Source of the DNA: Azonexus sp.
GTDB lineage: Bacteria; Pseudomonadota; Gammaproteobacteria; Burkholderiales; Rhodocyclaceae
Reading direction: 5' to 3'
NCBI GenBank assembly: GCA_031285115.1
Contig: JAITWU010000048.1
Location: forward strand, 1 to 19,529
Length of the DNA stretch: 19,529 nucleotides
Shown piece by piece: positions 872 through 16,044 of the stretch. Numbering within the stretch: the first letter of the stretch is position 1; each line of letters opens with the position of its first letter. The notes beneath the pieces are model-generated. The model made no database searches. It was not told the origin of the DNA and worked only from the letters and a program-made list of their open reading frames with translations. Made by a program: the position numbers and the translations under genes.

Positions 872-1660
872 TCAGCGCCCCTTGTAGACCGCCTGCCGTT
901 TTTCCATGAAGGCGTCGATGCCTTCGCCCGCATCCTCGCTCATCATGTTGCAGGCCATCACCTCGCTGGCGTAAGCGTAGGCGTCGCTCTGGTTCATCTC
1001 CAACTGGCGGTAGAACATGTTTTTGCCAAGACGAATGGCGACGGCGCTCTTGGCGAGAATAGCGGCGGCCAGACGCTCGATTTCGGCGTCCAGCGCCTCT
1101 GCCGGGGCGATGCGGTTGATGAGGCCCTTGGCTTTAGCTTCGTGCGCGTCGATAAATTCGCCGGTAAACAACATTTCCAGCGCCGCCTTGCGCCCGAGAT
1201 TGCGCGACAGCGCCACCGCCGGGGTCGAGCAGAACAGCCCGACATTGATGCCGGAAACGGCAAAACGGGCAACATCCGCCGCCACCGCCAGATCGCAGGC
1301 GGCGACCAGTTGGCAACCGGCGGCGGTGGCAATGCCGTGCACGCGGGCGATGACCGGCTGCGGCAAGCGGCCAATGGTCTGCATCAGTTGGCCGCATTGG
1401 GCAAACAGCGCCTGCAAAAACTCCTTGCCCGGATTGGCCCGCATTTCCTTCAAGTCATGTCCAGCGCAAAACGCCCGCCCGGCCCCGGCAATGACCACGA
1501 CGCGGACGCTTTCACTGGCGGCAATGGCCTCCAGTTCCGCCTGCAAGGCGGCGAGCATGGCTTTGGACAGCGAATTGAACTGGCCGGGGCGGTTGAGCGT
1601 CAGCGTGGTCAGTCCATCCGGGCGATCATGGCGGAGGATGAAAGGTTCTTCGTGGCTCAT
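872..1660 (-). CDS. Enoyl-CoA hydratase/isomerase family protein, ECHDC3-like
   Basis: 262-residue crotonase-fold protein. The start at 1660 is chosen because AGGAGA lies 7 bases upstream; an in-frame upstream extension to 1768 has no such site. The oxyanion-hole segment AGAGRAFCAGHDLKEM spans 59-73, and the second helix segment HGIATAAGCQLVAACD spans 108-123. The two glutamates that do hydration in classical enoyl-CoA hydratase (E144 and E164 in rat) are replaced: Q117 in 'GCQLVA' and G137 in 'SGINVGL'. The pattern 'ATAAGCQLVA...INVGLFCSTPAVAL' is characteristic of the ECHDC3 subgroup, whose acyl-CoA substrate is poorly defined. A cytosolic acyl-CoA-binding enzyme is likely, but ordinary hydratase activity is doubtful. 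The neighbours do not point to a pathway. Confidence 0.88.
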   Translation of the reverse strand: MSHEEPFILRHDRPDGLTTLTLNRPGQFNSLSKAMLAALQAELEAIAASESVRVVVIAGAGRAFCAGHDLKEMRANPGKEFLQALFAQCGQLMQTIGRLPQPVIARVHGIATAAGCQLVAACDLAVAADVARFAVSGINVGLFCSTPAVALSRNLGRKAALEMLFTGEFIDAHEAKAKGLINRIAPAEALDAEIERLAAAILAKSAVAIRLGKNMFYRQLEMNQSDAYAYASEVMACNMMSEDAGEGIDAFMEKRQAVYKGR

Positions 1661-1716
1661 GGCGGGGTCTCCTGTGATTGTTGTCGGAACCCAGCAATTT
1701 ACCGGAGAAGACATCA

Positions 1717-1743
1717 ACCGGCCAAGCGCCAATCCTGGCCGGT
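1717..1743 (-). terminator. Hairpin just downstream of vapC, possible weak terminator
   Basis: accggcca (1717-1724) and tggccggt (1736-1743) form a perfect 8-bp stem with an 11-base loop, starting 10 bases after the vapC stop codon in the direction of transcription. No T-run follows, so it may only stabilise the 3' end of the vapBC transcript or act with Rho. Confidence 0.3.
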
Positions 1744-1752
1744 CAATCCCGC

Positions 1753-2154
1753 TCAACCCCGCGTCCAATCCTCGACGCGCAAGCCGTCAACCCGCCCAAA
1801 CGCCGCATCATGGGTGACCAAAACCGCATCCGCAGCCAGCGCATGAGCGGCAATCAGCATGTCGAGCGGGCCGAGGACGTTGCCCCGCCTTGCCATCCCG
1901 GCCCGCACGCTGCCATAACACCGCATCGCCCTTTCATCCCACGGCAGCACATCGACGCGCCGCAGCAGTTCCGCAATCACTTGCTGAAGCCGTTTGGCCT
2001 CCGGCATTTTAGCCAGACCAAACATCAATTCCCCGCCGGTAATGGCCGACAGGCACAGGGCGCTCATCGGCGTCGCCATGATCCGCCGGGAAACTACCGG
2101 GTGGCTTTTGATGAAATGGCTGACGGCATTGGTATCGAGCATGTAGCGTTTCAT
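1753..2154 (-). CDS. vapC: VapC-type PIN-domain ribonuclease toxin
   Basis: 133-residue PIN-domain protein, the usual VapC length. The acidic Mg2+-binding residues are present: D7 (MLDTNA), E42 (GGELMFGL), D98 (GPLDMLIAAHA) and D116 (VTHDAAF). VapC toxins are endoribonucleases that cut tRNA or rRNA when the antitoxin is lost; the target of this one cannot be read from sequence. The start at 2154 overlaps the antitoxin stop as ATGA (2151-2154), the normal translational coupling of such pairs; an in-frame ATG at 2163 is less likely. It is the second gene of the vapBC operon. Confidence 0.9.
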   Translation of the reverse strand: MKRYMLDTNAVSHFIKSHPVVSRRIMATPMSALCLSAITGGELMFGLAKMPEAKRLQQVIAELLRRVDVLPWDERAMRCYGSVRAGMARRGNVLGPLDMLIAAHALAADAVLVTHDAAFGRVDGLRVEDWTRG

Positions 2155-2411
2155 TCGCGCCATCCGGCAAAAGGATCACGCTCCTGCACGCCCTGACTGC
2201 GCTCGCTGGCATCGAGAAAATCGGCAGGCGCTTCGGCATCCTTGAGAGCGGCGAGAAAACCATCCCAGTTGGTCGGCTTGCGCGACAAAATCACGTCGCC
2301 GGTCTCTAAATCCTGACGAATGAAAACTTCTTTTTCGGCAAAACGATAAGCGGCAGGCAGACGAACGGCCTGGCTGCGACCGTTGATGAACAGCTTGGCA
2401 ACCTGATTCAT
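2151..2411 (-). CDS. vapB: VapB-type AbrB/MazE-fold antitoxin
   Basis: 86-residue protein beginning MNQVAKLFINGRSQAVRLPA, the swapped-hairpin AbrB/MazE DNA-binding fold of VapB antitoxins (residues about 5-45). The acidic, tryptophan-containing C-terminus (residues 46-86, ending DPFAGWRE) is where VapB proteins wrap around the toxin. The start at 2411 has GGAG 7 bases upstream. Such antitoxins usually repress their own operon; repeated sites that fit this overlap the predicted promoter at 2433-2487. The gene is divergent from dnaE, with 110 bp between the starts. Confidence 0.9.
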   Translation of the reverse strand: MNQVAKLFINGRSQAVRLPAAYRFAEKEVFIRQDLETGDVILSRKPTNWDGFLAALKDAEAPADFLDASERSQGVQERDPFAGWRE

Positions 2412-2432
2412 GATTTTGCTCCAGAGGAAAAA

Positions 2433-2487
2433 TTGGCATATACCGCAGGATAGGCCCGGAGGCGGCATATATCAAGATGTATGCCAA
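2433..2487. promoter_or_regulatory. Candidate VapB(C) operators: repeated ggcatata sites
   Basis: ggcatata occurs directly at 2435-2442 and 2464-2471, and an inverted copy (tgtatgccaa) is at 2478-2487. The outer pair 2433-2442 / 2478-2487 is an inverted repeat with 9 of 10 matches. The sites flank and lie within the predicted vapBC promoter, as expected for autorepression. Occupancy might also affect dnaE, whose start is only 35 bp beyond the last copy. Confidence 0.45.
2447..2475 (-). promoter_or_regulatory. Predicted sigma-70 promoter of vapBC
   Basis: Read on the minus strand, TTGATA (2475-2470) and TATCCT (2452-2447) are separated by exactly 17 bases, 36 bases upstream of the vapB start. 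The -35 matches consensus at 5 of 6 positions and the -10 at 4 of 6. Prediction from sequence only. Confidence 0.5.
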
Positions 2488-2521
2488 AGTGTTTGTGGCT
2501 GGCCGGGGTAAAATCCGCCCG

Positions 2522-5500
2522 ATGAATCCCCCGCGCTACGTCCATCTCCGTCTTCATTCCGAATATTCCGTCAGCGATGGCATCGTCCGTTTGGGCGATG
2601 CGGTCAAGCGGGCGGCGGCGGATGGGATGCCCGCCCTGGCGCTGACTGATCTCGGCAATCTCTTTGGCCTCGTCAAGTTCTACACGGCGGCGCGGAGCAA
2701 GGGCGTGAAGCCGATCATTGGCGCTGATGTCTGGATCGCCAACCGGGAGACGCCGGAAGACGCTTACCGACTGCTGCTTCTGGCGCGTAACCGCGAGGGC
2801 TACCGGCAGTTGTGCGAATTGCTGACGCGGGCCTATCTCGCCGAGGGGCGGCGCGAGCGGGCGGAGATTCGCCGCGAATGGTTTGCCGAGATCGGCTGCG
2901 ATGGCCTGATTGCGCTTTCCGGCGGGCATTTGGGCGATGTCGGCGAAGCGTTGCAAAATGGCAATTTCGCCCAGGCCGCCGAGCGGGCGAGTGCCTGGGC
3001 GGCGATTTTTCCCGATGCTTTTTATCTCGAAGTCCAGCGTTACGGCCAGCCGCAGCAGGAGAGCATCGTCCAGCAAACGGCTGATCTGGCGGGTGATTTG
3101 GCGCTGCCGCTGGTGGCGACGCAGCCGGTTCAGTTTATGCAGAAAGACGATTTTCGCGCCCATGAAGCGCGTGTCTGCATTGCCGAAGGCTATGTGCTGG
3201 GCGACCACCGGCGGCCCAAAATTTATACCGAAGAACAGTATTTCAAGAGCCAGCAGGAGATGGTCGAATTGTTCGCCGACCTGCCGGAAGCCATTGAAAA
3301 CACGCTGGAAATCGCCCGCCGCTGCAATATCGAATTGACGCTGGGCAAGAATTTTCTGCCCGATTTTCCGATTCCGCCGGGTTTGACCATCGCCGAGCAT
3401 TTGATTGGCGAAGCGCAAAAAGGGCTGGAAATCCGCTTGGCCGAGCTTTATCCCGACCCGGCGACGCGCGCCGAGCGGCGGCCCGAGTACGATGCGCGGC
3501 TCGCTTTCGAGTGCGACACCATCATCCAGATGGGCTTCCCCGGTTATTTTCTGATCGTTGCCGATTTCATCAACTGGGGCAAGGAAAACGGCGTGCCGGT
3601 AGGTCCTGGCCGAGGTTCCGGGGCGGGTTCGCTGGTTGCTTATTCGCTGCGCATCACCGACCTCGACCCGCTCGCCTACGCCTTGCTGTTCGAGCGGTTT
3701 TTGAACCCGGAGCGGGTGTCGATGCCCGACTTCGACATTGACTTTTGCCAGGACAACCGCTGGCGCGTCATCGAATATGTGCGCGAGCACTACGGCGCGG
3801 CGGCGGTCAGCCAGATTGCCACCTTCGGCACCATGTCGTCGAAGGCGGTAATCCGCGACGTTGGCCGCGTTTTTGGCCTGCCCTACTCGATGTGCGACCG
3901 CATTTCCAAGCTCATCCCGGTCGTCCAGAACAAGCCGGTATCGCTCGCCGAAGCCCTGGAGCAGGAGCCGCAACTGCGCGAAATGATGGCTGGCGACGGC
4001 GATGGCGAAAGTGTGCGCGAACTCTTTGACCTCGCCGGTCGCCTCGAAGACCTGACGCGCAACGTCGGTATGCACGCCGGCGGCGTCTTGATCGCGCCGG
4101 GCAAAATCACCGATTTCTGCCCGATTTATCAGGCCACCGGGGCCGATGCCTCGCCCGTCTCGCAATTCGACAAGGATGATGTCGAAAAAGCCGGTCTCGT
4201 CAAATTCGACTTTCTTGGGCTGCGCAACCTGACCATCATTGAGTTGGCGCTCACTTACATCAAACAGATGACGGGCGAGCGGCCCGACCTGATGGGCCTC
4301 GGCTTCAATGACCCCGGCGCCTACCAGATTTTGAAAGAGGCCAACACCACGGCCATCTTCCAGGTCGAATCGGAGGGCATGAAAAAGCTCCTCAAAAAGC
4401 TGCAACCCGACCGCTTTGAAGACATCATCGCCGTCCTTGCCCTCTACCGCCCCGGCCCGCTCGGCTCGGGCATGGTCGATGATTTCATCCTGCGCAAAAA
4501 AGGCCAGCAGGCCATCGACTACTTCCACCCCGACCTGAAAGCCTGTCTGGAACCGACTTACGGCGTCATCGTCTATCAGGAACAGGTGATGCAGATTTCG
4601 CAGATCATCGGCGGCTACACCTTGGGCGGGGCCGACATGCTGCGCCGGGCGATGGGCAAAAAGAAGCCGGAAGAAATGGCCAAACACCGCGAAACCATCG
4701 CCGCCGGGGCCAAAGAACGCGGCTATAACCCGGCGCTGGCCGAACAATTGTTCGACCTGATGACCAAATTTGCCGAATACGGCTTCAACAAATCGCACAC
4801 CGCCGCCTACGCCGTCGTCACCTACCACACCGCCTGGTTGAAGCGCCACCACGCCGCCGCCTTCATGGCCGCCTCGCTGTCCTCCGACATGGACAACGTC
4901 GAGACCATGAAAACCTTTTACGAAGATAGTCTCGCCAACAAACTCAAGGTGCTCGGCCCCGACATCAACGCTTCCAACTACCGTTTCGAGCCGGTCGACC
5001 GCCACACCATCCGCTACGGTCTGGGCGCCGTCAAAGGCACGGGCGAGCAGGCCGTCGGCGTCATCGTCAAGGCCCGTAACGAGGGCGGGCCGTTTGCCGA
5101 CCTCTTTGACTTCTGCCGCCGCTGCGACAAGCGCATGGTCAATCGCCGCACCATCGAAGCCCTGGTCAAAGCCGGGGCGTTCGACGCCATCGCCCCGCCG
5201 GTCGCCGGTTCCGAACAGGCCGACCGCCACCGGCTGCTGGCCTCGGTCGGCATTGCCATGGAATTTGCCGAACAGGCCGAACGCGACGCCATGCAGACCA
5301 GCCTGTTCGATGTCGCCGGCGTTGCCGACGCCCACGCCCCGGAATACGTCGCCGTCAAGCCGTGGGACGAAAAAACCCGGCTCATGGAAGAAAAGACCGC
5401 CCTTGGCTTTTTCTTTTCCGGCCACCCCTACAACAGCTACAAAAAAGAGCTGCAACCCTTTATCCGACGCTCTCTCGACCGCCTCGAACCAGCCAGGGAA

Positions 5501-5989
5501 ATGACCCTCATGGCTGGCATCGTCACCGGCGTGCGCACCCTGATGACGCGGCGCGGCAAAATGATGTTCGTGCAACTCGACGACGGCGCGGGGCAAATCG
5601 AAGTTTCCGTCTTTAACGAACTGTTCGAGATGGAACAGAAAAAAATCGTCACCGACGAAATTCTCGTCATCGAAGGCAAAGTCCGCTACGACGAATTTTC
5701 CGGCAGCAACGCCGTCACCGCCGAAAAACTCATGACCCTGGGCGAAGCCCGGGCGCGTTTTGCCAGACACCTGCTGCTCAAAATGAATGGCGAAGCGGAC
5801 GCCCGCAAGCTGAAAACGCTCCTCACCCCCTTCACCCCCGGCCCCGCCCCGGTGCGCATCCGCTACCGCAATATTGAGGCCGAATGTGAACTGCAACTCG
5901 GCCCCTCCGCCTCTGTCCGCCTCGAAAACGACCTGCTCGACGCCCTTGGCGAATGGTTGCGGGGGGAGAATGTGGAGGTGGTTTACTGA
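2522..5989 (+). CDS. dnaE: DNA polymerase III subunit alpha
   Basis: Replicative C-family polymerase that synthesises DNA within the Pol III holoenzyme. It has 1155 residues, against 1160 in E. coli, so it is full length. The N-terminal PHP domain opens with HLRLHSEYS (8-16). The palm has GPGRGSGAGSLVAY and the catalytic PDFDIDF, giving D403 and D405, with the third metal ligand D563 in KFDFLGLRNLTII. 'YGFNKSHTAAYA' belongs to the tail of the polymerase domain; helix-hairpin-helix and OB-fold ('LMTRRGKMMFVQLDDGAGQIEVSVF') regions follow, then the C-terminal tau-binding part. The ATG at 2522 gives the family N-terminus; its ribosome site is weak. It is convergent with hsdM. Pieces matching codons 533-543, 1069-1087 and 1142-1146 recur at 14814-14927. 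Confidence 0.98.
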   Translation: MNPPRYVHLRLHSEYSVSDGIVRLGDAVKRAAADGMPALALTDLGNLFGLVKFYTAARSKGVKPIIGADVWIANRETPEDAYRLLLLARNREGYRQLCELLTRAYLAEGRRERAEIRREWFAEIGCDGLIALSGGHLGDVGEALQNGNFAQAAERASAWAAIFPDAFYLEVQRYGQPQQESIVQQTADLAGDLALPLVATQPVQFMQKDDFRAHEARVCIAEGYVLGDHRRPKIYTEEQYFKSQQEMVELFADLPEAIENTLEIARRCNIELTLGKNFLPDFPIPPGLTIAEHLIGEAQKGLEIRLAELYPDPATRAERRPEYDARLAFECDTIIQMGFPGYFLIVADFINWGKENGVPVGPGRGSGAGSLVAYSLRITDLDPLAYALLFERFLNPERVSMPDFDIDFCQDNRWRVIEYVREHYGAAAVSQIATFGTMSSKAVIRDVGRVFGLPYSMCDRISKLIPVVQNKPVSLAEALEQEPQLREMMAGDGDGESVRELFDLAGRLEDLTRNVGMHAGGVLIAPGKITDFCPIYQATGADASPVSQFDKDDVEKAGLVKFDFLGLRNLTIIELALTYIKQMTGERPDLMGLGFNDPGAYQILKEANTTAIFQVESEGMKKLLKKLQPDRFEDIIAVLALYRPGPLGSGMVDDFILRKKGQQAIDYFHPDLKACLEPTYGVIVYQEQVMQISQIIGGYTLGGADMLRRAMGKKKPEEMAKHRETIAAGAKERGYNPALAEQLFDLMTKFAEYGFNKSHTAAYAVVTYHTAWLKRHHAAAFMAASLSSDMDNVETMKTFYEDSLANKLKVLGPDINASNYRFEPVDRHTIRYGLGAVKGTGEQAVGVIVKARNEGGPFADLFDFCRRCDKRMVNRRTIEALVKAGAFDAIAPPVAGSEQADRHRLLASVGIAMEFAEQAERDAMQTSLFDVAGVADAHAPEYVAVKPWDEKTRLMEEKTALGFFFSGHPYNSYKKELQPFIRRSLDRLEPAREMTLMAGIVTGVRTLMTRRGKMMFVQLDDGAGQIEVSVFNELFEMEQKKIVTDEILVIEGKVRYDEFSGSNAVTAEKLMTLGEARARFARHLLLKMNGEADARKLKTLLTPFTPGPAPVRIRYRNIEAECELQLGPSASVRLENDLLDALGEWLRGENVEVVY

Positions 5990-5992
5990 CTC

Positions 5993-6073
5993 GCCCCTTG
6001 AATACCCGCGCTCGTCGCAAAATCAGCAGGAGCAGTATTCTGCCGCCCCTGCCATGCCATTTATTCAAGGGGC
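5993..6073. repeat. 81-bp element bounded by 12-bp perfect inverted repeats
   Basis: gccccttgaata (5993-6004) and tattcaaggggc (6062-6073) are exact reverse complements. The interior includes 'gcagtattctgccgcccc' (6032-6049), which resembles half of the palindromic element found in hsdS. It sits 4 bp after the dnaE stop and 20 bp beyond the hsdM stop, between convergent genes. It may be a long-stem bidirectional terminator or a MITE-like remnant; no clear target duplication is seen. Confidence 0.5.
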
Positions 6074-6093
6074 AGGTTAATCGGGGGAATGGG

Positions 6094-7641
6094 TCAGGCT
6101 GATGATTTTGGCAGCGCCGCCGCCACATCCCGAAACGCAACCAGCGCCGCTTCCAGATGCTCGATGATTTCCTGCTGCAACACATCCGGCGGCGGCAGGT
6201 CATTGAGATTGTCCAAGTTTTCATCCTTCAACCAGAAAATATCCAGACTGGCCTTGTCGCGGGCAATCAGGTCTTCGTAAGGGTAAAACCTGAAACGTTC
6301 CGGTTTGAGCGGCAACTCTTTTTGTCCGAGCTTTTTTCGTTCGAGATTTCGCCGCTCGGCCTCTTTTCGCTCACGCGCTTGGCGCTCCTGACGCTCATGC
6401 CGGTTTTCCGGGTGATAGCAGGTAATGAAATCCTGCAAATCACTCAACTTCAGCGGGCGGGTTTTCAGTGTGAAGCGCATATTGGTGCGTAAATCGTAAA
6501 ACCAGATACCTTGCGTATGCACCCGGCCATCCTTGGGCGCGTTGTCGAAGAACACCACATTGGCTTTCACGCCCTGCGCGTAAAAGATACCGGTCGGCAG
6601 GCGCAGAATGGTATGCACATCGCAGGTTTCCAGCAGTTTGCGGCGAATTTTCTCGCCCGCGCCGCCCTCAAACAGCACGTTATCGGGCAGCACCACCGCC
6701 GCCTTGCCGTTCACCTTGAGCAGACTGACGATGTGCTGCAAAAAATTCAGTTGCTTGTTCGAGGTAGTTTCCCAGAAATCCTGCCGCTCGTAAGTCAGCG
6801 CGTCGCGGTCTTCTTCACCTTCTTCATTGGTGATGGTCATGCTGCTCTTCTTGCCAAAGGGCGGATTGGCCAGCACGTAATCAGCGCGGGTTTTCGGCTC
6901 GGCAATCAAGGCGTCTGAACGCCCGACCGCCGGTTCGCCATCCAGTTCGCCGATGTTGTGCAAAAACAGATTCATCAAACACAGACGGCGCGTGTTGGGT
7001 ACGATCTCATTGCCGAAAAACGTCGCATCGCGCAAAAACGCTTTCTGGCGCTTATCCAGCCTCGCCTCCGGGCGCGTCAGCCATTTGTACGTCCCCAGAA
7101 AAAAACCGCCTGTTCCGCACGCCGGGTCGGCAATCGTTTTCATCGGCTCGGGCCGCACGCAGGCCACCATCGCGTCGATCAGCGCACGCGGCGTGAAGTA
7201 TTGCCCCGCGCCGCTCTTGGTGTCCTCGGCGTTCTTCTGCAACAAGCCTTCGTAAAGATCGCCCTTGATGTCGGCATCAATACCAATCCACTTTTCGCCG
7301 TCGATCATCTGCACCAGTCGCGCCAGCTTGGCCGGGTCTTGAATCTTGTTCTGCGCCTTGAAGAAGATCGCGCCCAACATGCCCGGCTCATTGCCCAGCA
7401 CGCGCAACACATTCAGATAGTGCACTTCCAGCGGCTCGCCCGTCCTGCTGCACAGGCTCGCCCAGTCGTAACCAGCGGGAATGTGTGTGTCGCGGTTGTA
7501 AGGCTCTTGCGTGTACTCGTGCGCCAGCTTGAGGAAGAGCAAATAGGTCAACTGCTCCAGATAGTCGCCATAACCTACCCCGTCATCGCGCAGGGTGTGG
7601 CAGAAGCTCCAGATTTTCTGGACGAGGGAGGAGGCGTTCAT
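6094..7641 (-). CDS. hsdM: Type I restriction-modification N6-adenine methyltransferase subunit
   Basis: 515-residue HsdM. An N-terminal HsdM_N domain (QKIWSFCHTLRDDGVGYGDY, from residue 8) is followed by the N6-methylase domain: 'GAGQYFTPRALIDAMV' (144-159), SAM-binding motif I DPACGTGG (172-179) and catalytic motif IV NPPF (259-262). All residues needed for adenine methylation are present. With HsdS it forms the M2S methyltransferase, and with HsdR the restriction complex. A highly charged Arg/Glu stretch (about 412-445, 'ERQERQARERKEAERR') looks like a coiled coil. The ATG at 7641 has no good Shine-Dalgarno. It is the last gene of the locus and separated from fic by 256 bp, unlike the usual adjacent hsdM-hsdS order, so it probably has its own promoter. 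Confidence 0.96.
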   Translation of the reverse strand: MNASSLVQKIWSFCHTLRDDGVGYGDYLEQLTYLLFLKLAHEYTQEPYNRDTHIPAGYDWASLCSRTGEPLEVHYLNVLRVLGNEPGMLGAIFFKAQNKIQDPAKLARLVQMIDGEKWIGIDADIKGDLYEGLLQKNAEDTKSGAGQYFTPRALIDAMVACVRPEPMKTIADPACGTGGFFLGTYKWLTRPEARLDKRQKAFLRDATFFGNEIVPNTRRLCLMNLFLHNIGELDGEPAVGRSDALIAEPKTRADYVLANPPFGKKSSMTITNEEGEEDRDALTYERQDFWETTSNKQLNFLQHIVSLLKVNGKAAVVLPDNVLFEGGAGEKIRRKLLETCDVHTILRLPTGIFYAQGVKANVVFFDNAPKDGRVHTQGIWFYDLRTNMRFTLKTRPLKLSDLQDFITCYHPENRHERQERQARERKEAERRNLERKKLGQKELPLKPERFRFYPYEDLIARDKASLDIFWLKDENLDNLNDLPPPDVLQQEIIEHLEAALVAFRDVAAALPKSSA

Positions 7642-7897: not shown

Positions 7898-9013
7898 CTA
7901 AAGCACATCCCGCCCCTCCGCCAGATTGATGAGCCGGGGAAAACACAAAGTCGCAGGACGGCGACCGCTTCCCGCCTGTAGCTCCCGCAAGATACCGCCG
8001 TCACGCAATTGGCGTAGCAAGCTGGGCGCAGTTTTTTCGTGGATACCGAACTCTTGGCTCAATTGCTCGGACAAATCAGAGATGCGGAAAATTGGCTTGC
8101 TGAAAATCGCATCCAGCAAATGCACCGTGTACTGTGAGTGCGTAAGCGAGTGAATAGCCTGCTTCATCTCCTCGTATAGCACTTTAATGGCAGTGACACG
8201 CTGACTGTTCTGTCGCGCCTGTGCCAGCACAGCTTGCAGGAAGAAGGCGATCCAGCCATTCCAGTCACCACTGGCGGAAATGCTTTTGAGTCTTGCATAG
8301 TATTCGCTGCGATTACTTTCCATGTACTCAGACAAATAGAACATGGGCTGCGACAGCACTCGCTTTTGGTATAAAAATAAAGGGATCAGAATGCGGCCTA
8401 TGCGTCCGTTGCCATCCTTAAATGGGTGTAGCAATTCAAATTGGGCGTGTACCACCGCTGTTTGCAACAGAAAATCAATGTCATCACTGTCCAGATACTG
8501 CTCCCACGCCTGCAAATGATCGGGAAGTTGCAAGGGATTGGGAGGCACAAAGCTGGCCTGCTCAATGGTGCAACCATAAGAACCAATCCAGTTTTGGTCG
8601 CGGCGAAATTCGCCAGGTGTTTTATCCTGCCCGCGCACACTGTCCATTAGGATACGGTGCAACTCGCGCACGAAAGACAATCGAATGGGATAGTCTTTCA
8701 GATATTCGCGCGCTGCAAATAGCGCCTTGCGGTAATTGGAGATTTCCTGAATATCCTGGAATTTTTCACCCTCTTTCAGCAACCCGGCTTCCTGTTCCAG
8801 CACCTCATCCACTGTTGCTTGAGTACCTTCGATCCGGGATGACAGCACGGCTTCTTGAGTGGTCAGTGGCGACAGCATAACCGCAGGATTGGGAATGCCT
8901 TGCAGCAGTCCGTCATAACGTGCCAGTTCGCTGTTCGCCTGTCCAACCAACGGTAATAAACGCCGATAATCCAAATCTGTCAGTGGCAAAATATTCGGGA
9001 TGTACGAGGTCAT
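7898..9013 (-). CDS. Class II Fic family protein (probable AMP-transferase) in the RM locus
   Basis: 371 residues. A Fic_N-type N-terminus precedes the Fic core with the catalytic motif HPFKDGNGRIGR (196-207, consensus HPFx(D/E)GNGRxxR); H196 is the catalytic base and the arginines bind ATP. SSRIEG at 58-63 matches the (S/T)xxxE(G/N) inhibitory helix, and its position N-terminal to the Fic core makes this class II: E62 should block ATP until relieved. A helical, winged-helix-like tail (about 300-371, 'IHEKTAPSLLRQLRDGGIL') probably binds DNA or dimerises. Such enzymes usually AMPylate a protein target, unknown here. The start at 9013 has AGGAGA 7 bases upstream and overlaps the hsdS stop (ATGA, 9013-9010), so translation is coupled to hsdS. 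Base composition is more AT-rich than the core genes, consistent with transfer. Confidence 0.92.
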   Translation of the reverse strand: MTSYIPNILPLTDLDYRRLLPLVGQANSELARYDGLLQGIPNPAVMLSPLTTQEAVLSSRIEGTQATVDEVLEQEAGLLKEGEKFQDIQEISNYRKALFAAREYLKDYPIRLSFVRELHRILMDSVRGQDKTPGEFRRDQNWIGSYGCTIEQASFVPPNPLQLPDHLQAWEQYLDSDDIDFLLQTAVVHAQFELLHPFKDGNGRIGRILIPLFLYQKRVLSQPMFYLSEYMESNRSEYYARLKSISASGDWNGWIAFFLQAVLAQARQNSQRVTAIKVLYEEMKQAIHSLTHSQYTVHLLDAIFSKPIFRISDLSEQLSQEFGIHEKTAPSLLRQLRDGGILRELQAGSGRRPATLCFPRLINLAEGRDVL

Positions 9014-10740
9014 TTCAGGTTCTCCTTGGTTTTTCGCTCGCGCGGTTTCTTCTTGTTCTGTGGCGTGTTCAAACTGTAGGGGCGGCATTCTGCCGCCCGT
9101 TGTTGTTTGACCGAAGCGGGCGGCAGAATGCCGCCCCTACGAGGGATCGCACGCTCGGCGCGGATACGCTCCAGCAGGGCGCAGGCGGGTTCGTCGTTCG
9201 GGTCTTGCGGGACGAGTTGACCGCAGAAGGCGGCGCGGAGGATGTTTTGGCGTTGGGCGGCGGATTGTTTGAGGGCGTGCCTTATTGATTCTTCTTGTAA
9301 TTCCATCGCTTCTAGTTGTGATTTCAATACGATAGCAAGCTCCTTAATCTCTTGTGTCGGAGGTAATGGAACCCAAACAGCCGCAACCTGTTGGAGATTC
9401 AAGCCCGGTTTACCGGCTCCATAAGCAGCGTTATTTAACTGGCCACGTCCTCCCGCATTTGTAGTGAGAAAGGAATGCAAAAAATCCGCAAGTTCTGAGT
9501 CTACGGGTCTAATCAATGCAACGTGTTGGCTAACGTAAGTCTCGTTGATTTCAGAGTTAATGCGTGCAGTTTTTCCTACGTTTGCTCCTGTTATTGTTAG
9601 CAGTAAATCATTTCTTCTGGCCTTTGTGCGCGCTCCTTCTGCGGTTGTCGGTGGATTGACATATGCAATATCCGACAAATTTAGCCAGTCTCTGTTGATA
9701 TTTTGCGACCGAATAAACATTGCCCCGGATTTTGCATAGTAATCAGCCCAACCGCGAGAACCACTGGTAATAAATTCAGACAACTGATCCACACTCGCCC
9801 AAACCCACCCCTCCGGCAATTCCGGAAAACCACTGGTATCCGGTTTGACCGGCTCGGGATATTTCTTTCGCCAATCTTTCGGCGGTGTTTTGCCTTGTTC
9901 CTTGAATTTGGCGAGCTGCTTGGCTTCCCAGCGGGCGCGGCGTTCGGCGAGGATGCGGGCCAACAGTTTCGCACCAGTTTCGTAGGGGCGGCATTTTGCC
10001 GCCCGTTGCGCAGGTGGATTCTTCGTGCCACCTTCATTTATCGAAGGATTTGCGGGCGGCAGAATGCCGCCCCTACAACAGGTTTCATCATCTGCCGCCC
10101 GTTGTTTTTCCGCCCGCCACTCTGCCGTGAGTGCGCCTTCCACGGCAGCTTTCAGCAAAGATTGACGATATTGCGCCAGCTTCTTTTGTGCGGCCTTGAG
10201 TTCGGCCACGCCTGCATCGAGGTCGGTAAGGAGTTCTTCGAGTTTGGCGATGATGCGGGTTTGTTCGGCGGCGGGAGGAACAGGAACGTCAACAGTTGCG
10301 AGCCATTTCGTTGGCACACGAAGCTGACCGGCTGTACCTGTCATGTGATGGCGGGCAAGCTTGCGAAATTCAGGTTGCGACAAATAATGTGCAAGCCAAG
10401 TACCCGTAACGACTGCACTTGGTCGCAAAACATGAAATTCCGTAGAACCGAAGGCGTAGCGGTTGGATAACTGGGGAACCAGTGCGCCTTTGCCATTTTC
10501 CATGCAGGGCGTGATTTTGGCGAACAAAACATCACCTTCGGCAAAGTATGTATAGCCCTTGCGAACTTCACCCAATGGGCGAAGTTGCGAAGCATCAAGT
10601 CCGCCGAAATTTTCTTGAACAGCGGACATGGGAACAAAATGAACTGAGGCATCGTCTGCTAAATCCGCATTAAACTTTGGACTGAGGTCGGCGATGCCTT
10701 GAATCTCGGCGTGTACCCACCCATTCGGCAACTCACTCAC
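9010..10740 (-). CDS. hsdS: Type I restriction-modification specificity subunit with in-frame palindromic inserts
   Basis: HsdS chooses the bipartite DNA target of the type I enzyme. It has 576 residues from a GTG at 10740 that overlaps the upstream TGA as GTGA, with GGTGGGGG just upstream; an ATG at 10770 would extend it by 10 residues. TRD1 spans about 5-155 ('LPNGWVHAEI'), conserved helix CR1 about 156-210 ('AEQTRIIAKLEELL'), TRD2 about 305-460 ('LPEGWVWASV'), and CR2 about 462-512. Two inserts are not HsdS sequence: residues 222-254 (CRGGILPPA...CRPYE) in the inter-domain linker and 534-555 (RRGGILPPA...CRPYS) in the tail, both encoded by the same palindromic element and both keeping the frame. 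Without them the length would be close to the usual family length. The fic start overlaps its stop. Target sequence unknown. Confidence 0.94.
   Translation of the reverse strand: MSELPNGWVHAEIQGIADLSPKFNADLADDASVHFVPMSAVQENFGGLDASQLRPLGEVRKGYTYFAEGDVLFAKITPCMENGKGALVPQLSNRYAFGSTEFHVLRPSAVVTGTWLAHYLSQPEFRKLARHHMTGTAGQLRVPTKWLATVDVPVPPAAEQTRIIAKLEELLTDLDAGVAELKAAQKKLAQYRQSLLKAAVEGALTAEWRAEKQRAADDETCCRGGILPPANPSINEGGTKNPPAQRAAKCRPYETGAKLLARILAERRARWEAKQLAKFKEQGKTPPKDWRKKYPEPVKPDTSGFPELPEGWVWASVDQLSEFITSGSRGWADYYAKSGAMFIRSQNINRDWLNLSDIAYVNPPTTAEGARTKARRNDLLLTITGANVGKTARINSEINETYVSQHVALIRPVDSELADFLHSFLTTNAGGRGQLNNAAYGAGKPGLNLQQVAAVWVPLPPTQEIKELAIVLKSQLEAMELQEESIRHALKQSAAQRQNILRAAFCGQLVPQDPNDEPACALLERIRAERAIPRRGGILPPASVKQQRAAECRPYSLNTPQNKKKPRERKTKENLK
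9076..9140. repeat. Palindromic element, copy 1, inside the hsdS C-terminal coding region
   Basis: Bases 9076-9099 (beginning gtaggggcggcattctgc) and 9117-9140 are perfect 24-bp reverse complements around a 17-base loop. On the minus strand it is read in frame as RGGILPPASVKQQRAAECRPY. It looks like a REP- or MITE-like dispersed element, not part of the HsdS fold. Confidence 0.8.
9982..10076. repeat. Palindromic element, copy 2, inside the hsdS central linker
   Basis: Bases 9982-10005 and 10053-10076 are 24-bp inverted repeats with one mismatch, around a 47-base loop. The arms are those of the 9076-9140 copy; the loops differ. It is read in the same frame as the other copy (RGGILPPA ... RAAKCRPY). 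A partial arm, tctgccgcccgttg, follows at 10091-10104, suggesting repeated insertion at this spot. Confidence 0.8.
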
Positions 10741-11909
10741 GCCGCCCCCACCTGTTCCACTGGCGGCCAAGTCTTGGCTTCGACACGCTCCCGATACCAG
10801 CGGTGCATGGCGGCATCGTCCACGGCGTATTCGCTGCGTGCCGATTTCCAGACCAAGGGAGGATTATGCTGACGCAGGCTTTCAAGCGCAGTTTGTGCCT
10901 TCTGCGCGGAAACCTTGCCTGCGGTTTTTTGCTGATAAAAAGCCAGTGCATCCGCATCGTAAGGACGAAAGCGTTGTTCTTTTTCGAGCATACGCCAGAG
11001 CACGGCGCGCTCAAGTGGATTGAGGCCAAGATAGTCAGATTCCATCTGCGCCTGGTCATCGCGCAGGCGTTGTTCCGCAATAGCGGCAACGGCAGACTCA
11101 AAGCGGCCTTCAATTGCAGCGAATGGACTTAATGCTTCGGTTAGTGCTGCCAAAAAGAACTGTGGCCGGTGGCCGAATCGCTCAAACGCATGGGATAGCA
11201 CCGCTTTATTGACTGGGCGCAAACCGGGTTGCTGTTGTTCCATGAGGTCAGCCACATAAGCAATGAAATCATCCCCCAGTTCGGGCATGCGCTGAATTTG
11301 CGAGCCATAAAAAGGGGCACTGTTGTTGTTGACCAGGCGCAGCAATTTGTCTCGGTCGGAGCCGGACATGACGAGCATCAGATTCACTTTTCCGGGCGCA
11401 TTCATTTGGTCGCGGGCTGATTTCAATGCAGTCATGGCATCTTCACCGGCTTCGCTGGTGAGTGCGTGCTGGGCCTCGTCAATGATTAAAACGACAGGTT
11501 TGCCAGCGCTTTCGCGCAGGGTTCTTAAAGCCTCAACCAGGGTGGCGCCGTCAATACGGCCTATTTTGCTGGTGTCAATCTTCAACGCTCCTGCAATGTT
11601 GACGCTTTCCAGCCCGGTGGCTTGGGCTGTTTTGGCAAGCCAGCCCAGATGTGATTGCAGGGCTTTCCCAATGACGTTGGCAATCAGCTCGCCAGGGTCG
11701 CGGCGCTTGTGAGTCCACAGGTCAACGTAAACAACAATCAATCCTTGGCGCTCCAGCTCAGGTTTGAGGTCTTCGGTGAGAAAAGTGGATTTGCCAGTAC
11801 GACGGGGGGCAGCAAGAAACAAGCCGTTATGGGCATCGCCAAACAGGTTTTTGCCTTGTATGGCCGTTGCAAGCTCTTGAGCAAGCGCGACTCTCTGGAA
11901 GTGGAGCAT
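10737..11909 (-). CDS. AAA/STAND-like P-loop ATPase embedded between hsdR and hsdS
   Basis: 390-residue ATPase of the AAA_16/ORC-like type. Walker A is APRRTGKST (34-42), Walker B VVLIIDEAQ (139-147), and 'LMLVMSGSDRDKL' (177-189) looks like a sensor strand. The C-terminal part (about 298-375, from 'LNPLERAVLWRMLEKE') resembles a winged helix, so DNA binding is plausible. AAGGA lies 7 bases before the ATG at 11909. Its stop overlaps the GTG start of hsdS, so the two are co-translated. It is not a standard Hsd subunit; accessory genes between hsd genes are known in some type I loci. Role inferred only: regulation of the RM complex, target sensing, or an additional defence activity. No nuclease or membrane segment is visible. 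Confidence 0.85.
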   Translation of the reverse strand: MLHFQRVALAQELATAIQGKNLFGDAHNGLFLAAPRRTGKSTFLTEDLKPELERQGLIVVYVDLWTHKRRDPGELIANVIGKALQSHLGWLAKTAQATGLESVNIAGALKIDTSKIGRIDGATLVEALRTLRESAGKPVVLIIDEAQHALTSEAGEDAMTALKSARDQMNAPGKVNLMLVMSGSDRDKLLRLVNNNSAPFYGSQIQRMPELGDDFIAYVADLMEQQQPGLRPVNKAVLSHAFERFGHRPQFFLAALTEALSPFAAIEGRFESAVAAIAEQRLRDDQAQMESDYLGLNPLERAVLWRMLEKEQRFRPYDADALAFYQQKTAGKVSAQKAQTALESLRQHNPPLVWKSARSEYAVDDAAMHRWYRERVEAKTWPPVEQVGAA

Positions 11910-11976: not shown

Positions 11977-14757
11977 CTACGCCACCAACTCCTCATTCAT
12001 CTGCGCCATCAGCCCATCCAATTCCTTGCCAAACAATCCCCATGCCTTTTGCAAGCCACCCTTGCCTGCCAGTTCGGCGTAATCAAAATCATCGCGGTTG
12101 ATGCTGCAACTGCTGGCGATGTGGTCTTTCATCAGGCGCAGCCATGCCATCTGCTCGGGGGTGAAGGCGGTGGCGCGCTGGGCGTTGTGGCGGAATATCC
12201 AGGCTTGGAAGCGTTTGTCCACCTCGTCGGCAAAGGGTTTGAGTTCCGTGTCCAGCCCCAGCGCGAAACGTACCAGTGAGACCAGATCGGTGAGTTGCCG
12301 TTTGCGGTCGGCGCCTTTGACTTGAGTCGCTTGCACACGGGCGTAGGCGTTCCAGAGTTTTTCAGTGGTGAGCATCAGCGGCGGTTTGGCGAGGTGCGCG
12401 TGCAGGTCTTCGATCATGTCGAAGGTAAGGGCGCGGCGTTGATACGGCTGCTGGTAGAAAAAGCTCAGGGCGGCAATGTCGTCCTTGTGCTGCTTGAGGG
12501 TGTCGGCAAAGGTTTGAATCACCGTTTGCGCCTGCGCCTCGGCCTGTGCGGAAAAGCCGCTGAAGGTGACTTGATCGAGGTTCAGGATGTCGATCAGTTG
12601 TTCGCGCTCGCGGCGGGCGTTGTCGATCTCATCGCGCAGTTCGGGCTTGTCGAAGGGCGCACAGGCGGCGGCAACGCGGGTGGCGCGGGCGGCGGCGATT
12701 TCTTCGGGCAGCAGGGTGTCTTCGTTGCGGGTAATGCCCTTGGTTTTGGCAGTGGTGAGCGCATCCTGCACGATGGCGTCGGGGTCGAGCGCGGCGATCA
12801 AACGCTTGCCCAAATCACCAACCGAAATGCCGTCGGCTGTTTTTTCAATGCGCGCCCTGGCTTTGTCGTCGAGTTGTTTGTTCAGGCGCACAAGGCGGTT
12901 GCCGAGTGAGAGCACGGTGTCATCGTCATGGCTGTTCATGGCGACGGCGAGCAACAGGTCTTTGAGCGCCACGCCGGGTTTCTTTTCCAGCGGGCGGCTT
13001 TCTGTCTTGAGCGATTTTTCCACGCCAACGGCGTCGATCAGCACAAAATGGGTTTTGGCGCCATCGGCGGATTGGCTCACGCGCTGAAGGCCATCGGCAT
13101 CCAGACTGCGCACGCCGCGCCCTTTCATTTGTTCGTAATAGCCTTTGCTGCGCACATCACGCATGAAAAGCAGAATTTCGAGCGGTTTGACATCGGTGCC
13201 GGTGGCGATCATGTCCACGGTGACGGCAATGCGCGGATGGTAGTCGTTGCGGAAGCTGGCGAGGATGCTGTCGGGGTCTTCTTCGGCGCGGTAGGTGACT
13301 TTTTTGCAGAAGGCATTGCCCTCGTTATAAACCTCGCGCACGATTTTGATGATGTCGTCGGCGTGGCTGTCGGTCTTGGCGAAAATCAGCGTCTTGGGCG
13401 TTTCTTGGCGCGCCGGGAAAATTTGTGTCTCCACCGCAGTTTTCATCGCGGTAATGACTTCACGAATCTGGCTCGGATTGACGACGGATTTATCCAGTTC
13501 CTTGCCGGTGTAAATGATGTCTTCTTCCGTTTGCGCCCAGCGTTTGGCGCGTGTTTGGCGGTCGCGGTGATCAACCCATTCTTTGGTTTCTATCGTTGCG
13601 CCGGTGCGGGTGATTTTGGTTTCAATTTCATAAACGTCATAGCCGACGTTGACGCCATCGACCACAGATTGCTCGTAGCTGTATTCGGCAACGACATTGC
13701 CACCGAAAAAGCCGTAGGTGCGCTGGTCGGGCGTGGCGGTCAGGCCAGTCAAAAAGGCATCGAAATAATCGAGCACCTGCTTCCACAGGTTGTAGATGCT
13801 GCGGTGGCATTCGTCGATGATGATGAGGTCGAAGGTTTCGCTGGGAATGTGGGCGTTGTAAATGACTTCCCTGGCCTGATTTTGTGTTTGCTGCACTTCG
13901 TTGAGCGAAATATCTTCCGCCGATTCATCCATCGGCTCGCCGCTCAAAATTGAATAGATGCGCTGGATGGTGCTGATGCACACCTGTGAATGCGGGTCGA
14001 TGCTGGAAGATGCCAGCCGCTGTACGTTGTAAAGTTCGGTGAATTTGCGACCATCGTCGGGCGGTGTGTAGGCCATAAACTCTTGATGCGCCTGCTTGCC
14101 GAGGTTGCGCGTATCGACCAGAAACAGAATGCGCTTTGCGCCGCCGAATTTGAGCAGGCGATACACCGAGGTGATGGCGGTAAAAGTTTTGCCCGCGCCG
14201 GTGGCCATGTGGATGAGGGCGCGGGGCTTGTTTTGCGCGAGGGATTTTTCCAGCCCCTTGACGGCGCTGATCTGGCAATCGCGCAGGTTTTGTTGCGGTA
14301 GCGCAGGCATTTGTTCAGCCAGACGACGCCGCAGGGTTTCGGACTGGGCCAGCCACTGCGTCAGAGTTTCCGGCTTGAAGAAATGGAAAATTTCACGCGA
14401 GCGCGGCGCGGGGTCGGTGTTGTCGGTGAAACGAATGATCTGGCCGGTGGCTTCAAACAAAAAACGTAGCGGCGCGTTGTCCTTGCGCCATTTGAGATTG
14501 GCGACGGCGTAGCGTGCAGTCTGCGCTTCGGCTACGGTCAGGTTTTCGCCTGCACTGTCTTTCTTGGCTTCAATCACGCCGCAAGGCTGGCGATCGACGA
14601 ACAGTACGTAATCGGCTGGGCCGGTGTCGGTGGGATATTCACGCACGGCCACGCCGCGCCCGGCGGCGAGGTTGAGTTGCTTCATGTCCTGAATGATCCA
14701 GCCCGCTTGTTCGAGCTTGCGGTCGATTTGCTGGCGTGCTCTGGTTTCGGGGGTCAT
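11977..14757 (-). CDS. hsdR: Type I restriction-modification restriction/translocase subunit
   Basis: 926-residue HsdR of the EcoEI-like size class. The N-terminal endonuclease domain has the PD-(D/E)xK arrangement, D49 in 'GPADYVLF' and E63-A-K65 in 'GVIEAKK'. The SF2 translocase follows with Walker A GAGKT (187-191), DECH (315-318), LTATP (339-343) and a motif VI-like 'QMKGRGVRS' near 545. The C-terminal region ('GGLQKAWGLFGKELDGL') is the helical part that docks on the methyltransferase. All catalytic residues are intact, so restriction should be active. With HsdM2-HsdS it cuts unmodified DNA after ATP-driven translocation. The ATG at 14757 has no strong ribosome site. First gene of the locus; the promoter should lie in 14758-14850, where the dnaE remnant starts. 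Confidence 0.96.
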   Translation of the reverse strand: MTPETRARQQIDRKLEQAGWIIQDMKQLNLAAGRGVAVREYPTDTGPADYVLFVDRQPCGVIEAKKDSAGENLTVAEAQTARYAVANLKWRKDNAPLRFLFEATGQIIRFTDNTDPAPRSREIFHFFKPETLTQWLAQSETLRRRLAEQMPALPQQNLRDCQISAVKGLEKSLAQNKPRALIHMATGAGKTFTAITSVYRLLKFGGAKRILFLVDTRNLGKQAHQEFMAYTPPDDGRKFTELYNVQRLASSSIDPHSQVCISTIQRIYSILSGEPMDESAEDISLNEVQQTQNQAREVIYNAHIPSETFDLIIIDECHRSIYNLWKQVLDYFDAFLTGLTATPDQRTYGFFGGNVVAEYSYEQSVVDGVNVGYDVYEIETKITRTGATIETKEWVDHRDRQTRAKRWAQTEEDIIYTGKELDKSVVNPSQIREVITAMKTAVETQIFPARQETPKTLIFAKTDSHADDIIKIVREVYNEGNAFCKKVTYRAEEDPDSILASFRNDYHPRIAVTVDMIATGTDVKPLEILLFMRDVRSKGYYEQMKGRGVRSLDADGLQRVSQSADGAKTHFVLIDAVGVEKSLKTESRPLEKKPGVALKDLLLAVAMNSHDDDTVLSLGNRLVRLNKQLDDKARARIEKTADGISVGDLGKRLIAALDPDAIVQDALTTAKTKGITRNEDTLLPEEIAAARATRVAAACAPFDKPELRDEIDNARREREQLIDILNLDQVTFSGFSAQAEAQAQTVIQTFADTLKQHKDDIAALSFFYQQPYQRRALTFDMIEDLHAHLAKPPLMLTTEKLWNAYARVQATQVKGADRKRQLTDLVSLVRFALGLDTELKPFADEVDKRFQAWIFRHNAQRATAFTPEQMAWLRLMKDHIASSCSINRDDFDYAELAGKGGLQKAWGLFGKELDGLMAQMNEELVA

Positions 14758-14778
14758 GGATTATTTTTTGCCGGATGT

Positions 14779-14808
14779 GTGATGGCGAGTCTATCACCCG
14801 ACTATCAC
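14779..14808. promoter_or_regulatory. gtgat/atcac repeats upstream of hsdR
   Basis: gtgat (14779-14783) and atcac (14793-14797) form an inverted repeat, and ctatcac recurs at 14791-14797 and 14802-14808, one helical turn apart. The position 20-50 bp upstream of the hsdR start suits an operator, but the second copy may simply be the edge of the dnaE-derived sequence. Confidence 0.25.
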
Positions 14809-14813
14809 GTCTC

Positions 14814-14927
14814 TGCCCGGTTTATCAGGCTACCGGGGTCGATGCCACCGACAAACTGCTAACCCTGGGCGAAGCCCGCGCCCGCTTCGCTAAACACCTG
14901 CTGCGCAAAACGCTTGGCGAATGGTTG
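14814..14927 (+). pseudogene. dnaE: Collapsed remnant of a second dnaE 3' region
   Basis: Three blocks match the intact dnaE in the same order and the same reading frame. Bases 14814-14846 match 4118-4150 with 3 differences in 33 (CPVYQATGVDA against CPIYQATGADA). Bases 14853-14909 match 5726-5782 with 10 differences in 57, six of them silent (KLLTLGEARARFAKHLLRK). Bases 14913-14927 are identical to 5945-5959 (LGEWL). The intervening dnaE sequence is missing, so this is an eroded copy of another allele and cannot make a polymerase. The mostly third-position differences show the two copies diverged while still functional. It lies between the hsdR start and a strong terminator. Confidence 0.85.
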
Positions 14928-14935
14928 TTTATTAA

Positions 14936-14965
14936 CGAAAAACGGGGCGCTGGCCCCGTTTTTCG
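14936..14965. terminator. Strong bidirectional intrinsic terminator
   Basis: Bases 14936-14948 (cgaaaaacggggc) pair perfectly with 14953-14965 around a gctg loop, giving a 13-bp stem with a GC core flanked by A and T runs, so it works on both strands. It ends aqpZ transcription (minus; stop at 14987) and would have served the dnaE copy whose remnant lies just upstream on the plus strand. It would also insulate hsdR from read-through. Confidence 0.85.
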
Positions 14966-14986
14966 CATGGTGGAAAGCCTTGGCGT

Positions 14987-15691
14987 TCAGCCTTTTACCG
15001 CCCTGCCCGCCACCAGCGGATAAACCACCCCCGCAATCGCCGCGCCGATGATCGGCGCGATCCAGAACAGCCACAGTTGCTCAAGCGCCCAGCCACCGGC
15101 GAATAACGCCTGCGACGTCGACCGCGCCGGGTTCACCGAGGTGTTGGTAACCGGGATCGAAATCAGGTGAATCAGCGTCAGACACAGGCCAATGGCAATC
15201 GGCGCGAAGTTGCCGGGGGCGCGTTGATCGGTCGAACCGAGAATGACGAACAGGAAAGCAAAGGTCATCACCACTTCGCAGACAAAAGCCGCTGCCATCG
15301 AATAGCCACCCGGCGAATGTTCGCCATAGCCGTTGCTGGCAAAGCCGCCCAACTCGAACCCCGCTTTGCCGGTGGCGATCAGGTACAGCGCCAGCGCCCC
15401 CAAGGCGCCGCCAATGACCTGGGCGACGACGTAAGGCAGCAAATCCTTTGCCGGAAAGCGCCCGGCTGCCACCAGTCCGACGCTGACCGCAGGGTTCAAG
15501 TGACAGCCGGAAATATGCCCGATTGCAAAAGCCATGGTCAGCACCGTTAAACCAAAAGCCAGCGCCACACCGGCAAAACCAATCCCCAATTCCGGGAAAG
15601 CCGCCGCCAGCACCGCGCTACCGCAACCACCGAGCACCAGCCATGCAGTCCCTACCATTTCGGCAGCCATCCGTTGAGTCAAAGAAGGCAT
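14987..15691 (-). CDS. aqpZ: Aquaporin Z, water channel
   Basis: 234-residue inner-membrane MIP-family channel with six hydrophobic helices. The two pore motifs are HLNPAVS (NPA at 66-68) and SVNPARS (NPA at 187-189). The selectivity-filter residues of water-specific AqpZ are conserved: F46, H175, T184 and R190, which argues for water rather than glycerol transport. The start at 15691 gives the typical N-terminus [11 protein letters not shown] and has AGGA about 10 bases upstream; an in-frame ATG 18 bases earlier is less likely. The terminator at 14936-14965 lies just beyond its stop. Likely monocistronic and divergent from the BPSS1780-family genes. Confidence 0.96.
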
Positions 15692-16044
15692 GAAAATTAT
15701 CCTCATCAAGTTAAAAAAACGCTGCGAAGTATACTCTGCTTATGACAAGCGGGAGTTCGCGGCGATTGCAACACCACTGGACCTCCTGCGCATGGTGGAA
15801 TCCAGACTGATGGCCTCAATACGCGCCGGCATGAGCCGGTTGCGTTACCGTCGCGCAAAATGTAGATGGCGCGCCAGTTGCCATTGAGTTGTCAGTTGGC
15901 ATGACAGCAATGGTGCAAAGACTTTTCACCTTGACGCTATACGTGACTTCCGCAGGCATTGTGGATTCTGACGAGGTCGGGCAAGGTTGTCGAGAATAGC
16001 GAATCTATCAAAAGCCGTTTGGGCTTCCCCGTTAGAATGTGCGC
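15692..16044. other. Divergent intergenic region with a hairpin, no gene seen
   Basis: 353 bp between aqpZ and the first BPSS1780-family gene. On the minus strand TATACT (15734-15729) could be the aqpZ -10 box, but the -35 is weak. An imperfect hairpin lies at 15881-15913 (ccattg/caatgg outer arms, tgtca/tgaca inner arms), without a T-run. No convincing reading frame, tRNA or small RNA was recognised. Confidence 0.4.

Follow-up and report, generated by a model that had tools for sequence, protein, structure and literature searches.

Beyond a type I restriction-modification (RM) locus in a contig of Azonexus sp., next to aqpZ, lies the leftover of a second dnaE gene. The sequence analysed is the whole of contig C303 (19,529 nucleotides, hereafter the window), from a draft metagenome-assembled genome of 2.64 Mb (414 contigs, 83% complete). 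Positions 14804-14935 consist of at least four ordered pieces of dnaE, from the middle of the gene, near its 3' end, the 3' end and the stop codon, amounting to ~130 bases. This remnant is most likely the dnaE that once faced aqpZ, now separated from the intact dnaE by 8 kb of RM-Fic locus, with no integrase detected. As to its origin, we tentatively favour, with a probability of roughly 40%, one-sided homologous recombination in dnaE, the opposite end having been joined illegitimately.

Structure of the contig and extent of the remnant

From left to right the window carries a crotonase-like gene, a toxin-antitoxin pair, dnaE, hsdM, a SoFic-like Fic gene, hsdS, an AAA ATPase gene, hsdR, the remnant, aqpZ and what we take to be the nadD-rsfS-rlmH cluster (Table 1). 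The genes from hsdM to hsdR read leftwards, convergent with dnaE and away from the remnant. A relative of the crotonase-like ORF is present in the dnaE neighbourhoods of 33 of 41 genomes, the window's own included. The PIN toxin was assigned by PF01850 (E 4.9e-16), while the best match of the antitoxin ORF, to PF04014 (E 0.0018), fell under the family cut-off and none was found at 0.001.

Table 1. Features of the window, with positions, strand and basis of assignment.
Feature	Position	Strand	Details
Presumed enoyl-CoA hydratase/crotonase-like gene	872..1768	-	normally adjoins dnaE upstream in the genus
Toxin-antitoxin pair between crotonase-like gene and dnaE	1753..2468	-	PIN-domain toxin 1753-2163; MazE/VapB-like antitoxin ORF 2151-2468
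dnaE, intact	2477..5989	+	ATG at 2477, or MNPPRY start at 2522 as in relatives
dnaE/hsdM intergenic stretch (convergent genes)	5998..6074		12-base inverted repeat GCCCCTTGAATA / TATTCAAGGGGC, read from the sequence
hsdM, type I methyltransferase	6094..7641	-	PF02384 E 1.7e-68; PADLOC MTase_I E 1.2e-193
SoFic-like Fic protein within RM operon	7898..9010	-	PF02661/PF13784; PADLOC SoFic E 3.3e-118
hsdS, type I specificity subunit	9010..10770	-	PF01420; PADLOC Specificity_I E 1.3e-127
AAA ATPase	10737..11909	-	PF13401 E 6.5e-7; no PADLOC match
hsdR, type I restriction subunit	11977..14757	-	PF08463, PF04851, PF04313
Remnant block 1	14804..14846	+	dnaE codons ~544-558; left edge ATCAC..., small indels, set by eye
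Remnant block 2	14847..14909	+	dnaE codons ~1082-1102
Remnant block 3	14913..14927	+	dnaE codons 1157-1161 (LGEWL); 15/15 vs window 5945-5959
Remnant block 4	14928..14935	+	final codons and stop of dnaE, TTTATTAA
Hairpin, terminator-like	14936..14965		perfect 13-base CGAAAAACGGGGC-GCTG-GCCCCGTTTTTCG, between remnant stop and aqpZ stop; read from the sequence
aqpZ (MIP channel)	14987..15709	-	PF00230 E 2.2e-48; convergent with the remnant, as with intact dnaE in the sister species G013

A blastn search of 14758-14986 against the window's dnaE gave two collinear matches on the same strand as dnaE: 14812-14846 with bases 1640-1674 (32/35, E 4e-9) and 14845-14921 with bases 3242-3318 (62/77, E 9e-18). 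Together with the perfect match of the third block, they bear out the three ordered dnaE blocks of the preliminary description. The LGEWL of block 3 occurs at this position in only four of 41 aligned dnaE proteins (window, G013, G015 and G077). The end of the remnant was set at 14935 because GAATGGTTG joined to TTTATTAA matches the extreme end of the dnaE of G013, GAGGTTGTTTATTAG. Judged from that gene's terminus (GTTGTTTATTAG), the joint between blocks 3 and 4 lies at a 5-base GGTTG repeat. The start, with a left edge placed by eye, is probably near 14804. The segment first described as 14814..14927 is thus dnaE as proposed, but longer at both ends. Its blocks had also been called in frame, which holds for the two internal joints and fails at the last; as this joint breaks the frame, nothing in the remnant points to a reading frame kept by selection.

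Chance similarity or an assembly artefact is a very improbable explanation. The source is a draft assembly, as noted above, but the best score of the remnant (76.1 bits) is far above the maximum across 253 further stretches of 229 bases from the window (31.7) and in 1000 dinucleotide shuffles (33.3), so that the blocks are not chance matches. Within the window's own genome the remnant region has no match besides itself and dnaE, and two strains have therefore not simply been merged. The intact gene is the sole dnaE match in this genome in a protein search at E 0.001, a search that misses the remnant too and that other short pieces could likewise escape.

The hairpin downstream of the remnant was not listed by a terminator scan, which returned 0 sites. 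Across 60 genomes, the window's own included, 18 had any match to 14760-15020 and no further remnant was found, in a search that missed the intact dnaE in 42 of them and that comparable remnants could likewise escape. The matches other than dnaE were to short hairpins similar to that at 14936-14965, elsewhere in G034, G018 and G004, and two weak ones of 39-40 bases in G033 and G014.

Affinity of the remnant allele

To characterise the allele from which the remnant derives, 36 aligned codons (108 bases) were compared with 41 dnaE genes. The remnant is identical to the window's dnaE at 93 of the 108 bases, to that of G013 at 87 and to the 39 others at no more than 87; over the same columns the dnaE genes of the window and G013 are 85% identical. 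With 15 of 108 codon bases differing from the window's present dnaE, a recent copy of that gene was rejected, in agreement with the preliminary description. Nine of these 15 differences fall at third positions, a weak excess (binomial P 0.03), and the differing codons comprise seven silent and seven non-silent cases. In the longest block (14853-14909 against 5726-5782), six of ten differences are silent, as first reported. Of the changes found only in the remnant, 6/10 are at third positions, which may hint, but no more, that the allele was functional for much of its separate history.

The remnant was then tried on 79 attachment branches of a fixed 41-gene dnaE tree. The three branches around the window and G013 were best (0, 0.24 and 0.77 log-likelihood units from the optimum, the next being 9.5 worse) and together hold 0.94 of the expected likelihood weight, although among the best 14 of the 79 placements four outside this clade had AU values of 0.066-0.088, just above 0.05. 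A tree from the 108 columns joins the remnant, the window and G013 with support of 99/93.7. The three alleles of this trio are nearly star-like. AU tests on the 108 columns rejected no alternative pairing tried, and an attempt to assign the remnant to the allele of the window or of G013 specifically failed, the placements being equivalent. The remnant therefore groups with the alleles of relatives, as anticipated, at the level of the window/G013 clade and not clearly with either member. On sequence grounds the remnant most likely derives from an allele of this clade, at a distance from the window's dnaE similar to that of the sister species.

The empty site in the sister species

In G013, dnaE and aqpZ are convergent with 5 bases between their stop codons, and neither the RM locus nor the remnant is present. 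This sole informative relative thus lacks both the island and the remnant; a remnant without the island would have spoken against the proposed history. It had also been predicted that relatives without the RM locus would have dnaE followed directly by the 14936-14965 hairpin and aqpZ; the dnaE-aqpZ adjacency is found in G013, whereas the hairpin is absent from it.

The aqpZ genes of the window and G013 are 90% identical at the nucleotide level. An aqpZ-like match was found in seven of 76 genomes of the genus, the close type in the window and G013 only (93%; next 63%), and the remaining five matches are at most 63% identical and all on contigs other than that of dnaE. As a trait seen in the window and G013 only, the dnaE-aqpZ adjacency suggests that the remnant-aqpZ pair is best read as its altered form.

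The other neighbour of aqpZ differs between the two genomes, so the region has also been rearranged. Beyond aqpZ the window continues into the nadD cluster, which G013 carries on its contig C90, and the genes beyond the aqpZ of G013 match contig C306 of the window's genome. In five relatives (G013, G065, G026, G028 and G004) genes other than aqpZ lie ahead of the nadD cluster. In G013 the place of aqpZ upstream of this cluster (L165, G013:C90) is taken by a small toxin gene that we take to be HigB-like; the other relatives have different conserved genes there.

On the opposite side of dnaE in G013 (L027 3-1655, G013:C56), a different type I hsdR lies directly upstream of the gene and is cut by the contig end. 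This stretch matches the window's hsdR at 91% over 32 bases, within both restriction genes and with no sign of a shared insertion.

The restriction-modification locus

With hsdR, hsdM and hsdS together, the 8 kb locus is a type I RM system, and the AAA ATPase and Fic genes are cargo past the three usual type I subunits. Among 399 genomes of the order, the nearest relatives of its hsdR are four genes at 73-80% identity, all from other families; in the genus itself (60 genomes) no full-length match exceeds 56% and no partial one 62%. GC content is 51-58% across the five genes of the locus against 61-65% in the surrounding stretches. The RM locus is on this evidence probably foreign, though the transfer need not have been recent. 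An integrase-borne island that replaced the gene end would carry an integrase or recombinase gene; no match to an integrase or transposase was found among the five scanned island proteins.

We do not favour the remnant as a part of the RM unit, as the regions upstream of hsdR in five relatives are unlike it by eye. Around the four hsdR relatives from other families (15.7-18.0 kb each), tblastn at 1e-5 detected no dnaE match and blastn no match to the window's remnant stretch.

Within the locus (window 9076-10109), a palindromic repeat, GCGGGCGGCAGAATGCCGCCCCTAC, occurs at 9116 and 10052 with related copies, inside the hsdS frame and at its end; it is read through as RGGILPPA...CRPY and has a weaker relative at 6026-6052.

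Origin of the arrangement

Homology-facilitated illegitimate recombination (HFIR), in which one end joins by homology and the other illegitimately, imports non-homologous genes without an integrase; it is reported for S. pneumoniae, A. baylyi and P. stutzeri transformed in the laboratory and, rarely, for E. coli conjugation (PMC3240628). The case described there is a laboratory reaction, whereas the window holds only an old natural product from which we infer the reaction. Our preferred reading is of this kind. Linear DNA from a close relative, carrying the 3' part of dnaE followed by the RM locus, would have entered the cell. On one side, homologous recombination within the resident dnaE would have kept a complete dnaE upstream of the RM locus; on the other, an illegitimate joint inside the resident dnaE would have stranded its 3' half, from ~codon 544, beside aqpZ. 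The stranded half would then have shrunk by internal deletions, the last across the GGTTG repeat, and with the loss of this homologous half a loop-out of the RM locus by recombination between the two dnaE copies would have become less likely. What we infer here is who the donor was, how its DNA recombined, in which order the steps took place and how stability was affected.

At the homologous junction expected from HFIR, an intact dnaE is present without an allele switch along its length. At the other junction, 14758-14803 / 14804 joins the region upstream of hsdR, to which the upstream regions of five relatives' hsdR genes are unrelated by eye, to mid-dnaE. The remnant begins at ~codon 544 and earlier codons are absent from the window outside dnaE, as a deletion of the resident sequence between the two junctions would leave it, although later erosion could give the same picture. 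Several points weigh against one-sided recombination. The intact dnaE is 88% identical at the nucleotide level to that of G013 overall, comparable to aqpZ, and G013 is also the nearest sequence, once in a tie, in 17 of 19 sliding windows, with no recombination break or allele switch seen in the 19. It thus has no visible mosaic and follows the sister species, and no foreign allele has been demonstrated. That the RM locus arrived together with a second dnaE, as first suggested, is therefore put forward here conditionally, the intact dnaE being without sign of foreignness. The reading is further limited to a single MAG contig, with G013 as its only informative relative.

The same order could have arisen if the RM genes had inserted with a long target duplication, the two dnaE copies being identical at birth and the downstream one having decayed, which we consider somewhat unlikely. 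Insertion of RM genes with duplication of host sequence has been described by the Kobayashi group and is a known pattern for RM genes in related genomes (PMC1643837, PMC3031569). Direct repeats of dnaE border the RM locus in the same orientation, dnaE-aqpZ in G013 supplies an empty target with one copy, and the near star-like relation of the three alleles fits an old duplication soon after the split from G013. Near-identical repeats would, however, be expected, and those in the window are 86% identical over the 108 codon bases and carry large deletions, though an old insertion could diverge; unlike in the described cases, the far copy is a diverged allele of ~130 bases and not a matching direct repeat. 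The concentration of differences at third positions, small as the numbers are, is also unexpected for a copy that was neutral from birth, and in a second scar, in genome G079, the two dnaE ends show 5 differences over 75 coding bases, three silent ones included.

A rearrangement independent of the arrival of the RM genes, in which the aqpZ segment with an attached dnaE end moved beside the RM locus and the nadD cluster, is unlikely. It would account for aqpZ lying ahead of the nadD cluster in none of the five relatives and for G013 having its nadD cluster on another contig than aqpZ, with genes beyond aqpZ that differ from the window's, but alone it leaves the landing 8 kb from dnaE and in the same orientation unexplained. 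Less probable still is a single crossover of a circular molecule (a plasmid or circularised fragment) with dnaE and the RM genes, giving two full dnaE copies of which one was lost. The final order would be the same and a whole second gene would be left, and the stretch from mid-gene to the stop can indeed still be seen; yet the first 540 codons of a second copy were not found in the window or, in the protein search at E 0.001 that misses the remnant too, in its own genome.

Integrative elements that take over the 3' end of a host gene are familiar for leaving the displaced end on their far side. The window differs from these in having no integrase match among the scanned island proteins and a remnant that reaches back to mid-gene. 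A likeness is also found in Vibrio T6SS effector-immunity arrays, where a new module displaces part of a gene, the old 3' end stays and an HFIR-like mechanism has been proposed (PMC5361080). A stranded 3' end is common to these arrays and the window, whereas the anchor there is a T6SS cluster and here an essential replication gene, with a restriction or toxin-antitoxin module as cargo. The open-licence literature held nothing combining restriction-modification, target duplication and dnaE, or Azonexus, restriction-modification and dnaE, and by title none of its items on HFIR and restriction-modification concerns this case.

Further scars at dnaE

For 56 genomes, 59 dnaE neighbourhoods with 745,431 flank bases were searched for pieces of the genome's own dnaE; a few of them held a partial dnaE only. 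Four of 60 genomes were left out: G009, with a short contig, and G021, G023 and G072, with matches of only ~30% identity. Two clear scars were found, in the window and in G079, and the others were at or near background. Reversed dnaE sequences gave a background maximum of 41.2 bits; a match in G077 (46.0 bits, 67% identity) lies above it and was counted as unproven.

In G079 (L090 6870-8072; G079:C111), the dnaE leader and the first 77 coding bases recur ~1.2 kb upstream of the gene at 95% identity over 128 bases, and ParD-like and ParE-like genes lie between the fragment and the intact dnaE. The fragment starts with MNSPRY, as in near relatives, and the intact copy with MNPPRY; the intact start nevertheless resembles most near relatives no less than the fragment does (e.g., 73 against 72 of 75 bases for G005). 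The fragment is bordered by inverted copies of a dispersed repeat, GGGGACAGACCACG, of which the window has no copy, and this suggests a repeat-assisted route in G079.

Both scars have the fragment outermost, beside the gene that neighbours dnaE in relatives, and the module between the fragment and the intact dnaE. This is the order to be expected when incoming DNA with a module beside a dnaE end joins homologously within dnaE and illegitimately at its far side. A broader and doubtful reading is that the ends of dnaE are recurrent homology anchors for integrase-free capture of RM and toxin-antitoxin modules in Azonexus/Dechloromonas, each capture stranding an old piece of dnaE, after whose loss the module is locked in place. 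Two independent captures would then be represented by the window (RM, 3' end) and G079 (ParDE, 5' end), and the hsdR of G013 and the PIN pair of the window, both upstream of dnaE, possibly further ones. Integrase-free settling of defence genes beside core genes is usually invisible because no trace remains after clean homologous exchange. A core-gene piece left stranded is a readable scar, which helps to date the event, shows on which side homology made the joint and offers a search target in any genome collection. If essential genes such as dnaE anchor repeatedly, such scars would directly measure how defence modules spread without an integrase.

A hotspot is suggested but not proven by two scars in 59 neighbourhoods, as the window itself prompted the scan and the stretches were centred on dnaE, which does not make a fair test. 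The earlier view of dnaE as an integrase-free exchange point thus gains one independent case, G079, without being established by 2/59 that include the window itself. A scan of the same type over 518 ORFs of the neighbourhoods, dnaE among them, gave ten matches of at least 60 bits. Two were the dnaE matches of the window and G079, a short repeat in G075 accounted for two more (88-96%), and the remaining six, in G015, G027 and G063, had 59-65% identity. Among the matches listed, RM genes were seen by eye near dnaE in G024 (~9 kb), G067 (~10 kb), G013 (the adjacent hsdR) and the window. Given that the 60 genomes gave 207 methylase matches, ~1.3 would be expected by chance within 11 kb of dnaE (hand arithmetic), so RM genes near dnaE are unremarkable. 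In the draft genomes G010, G078 and G082, dnaE is split across contig ends; its halves overlap by 24-34 residues in G010 and G078, which possibly reflects mixed strains.
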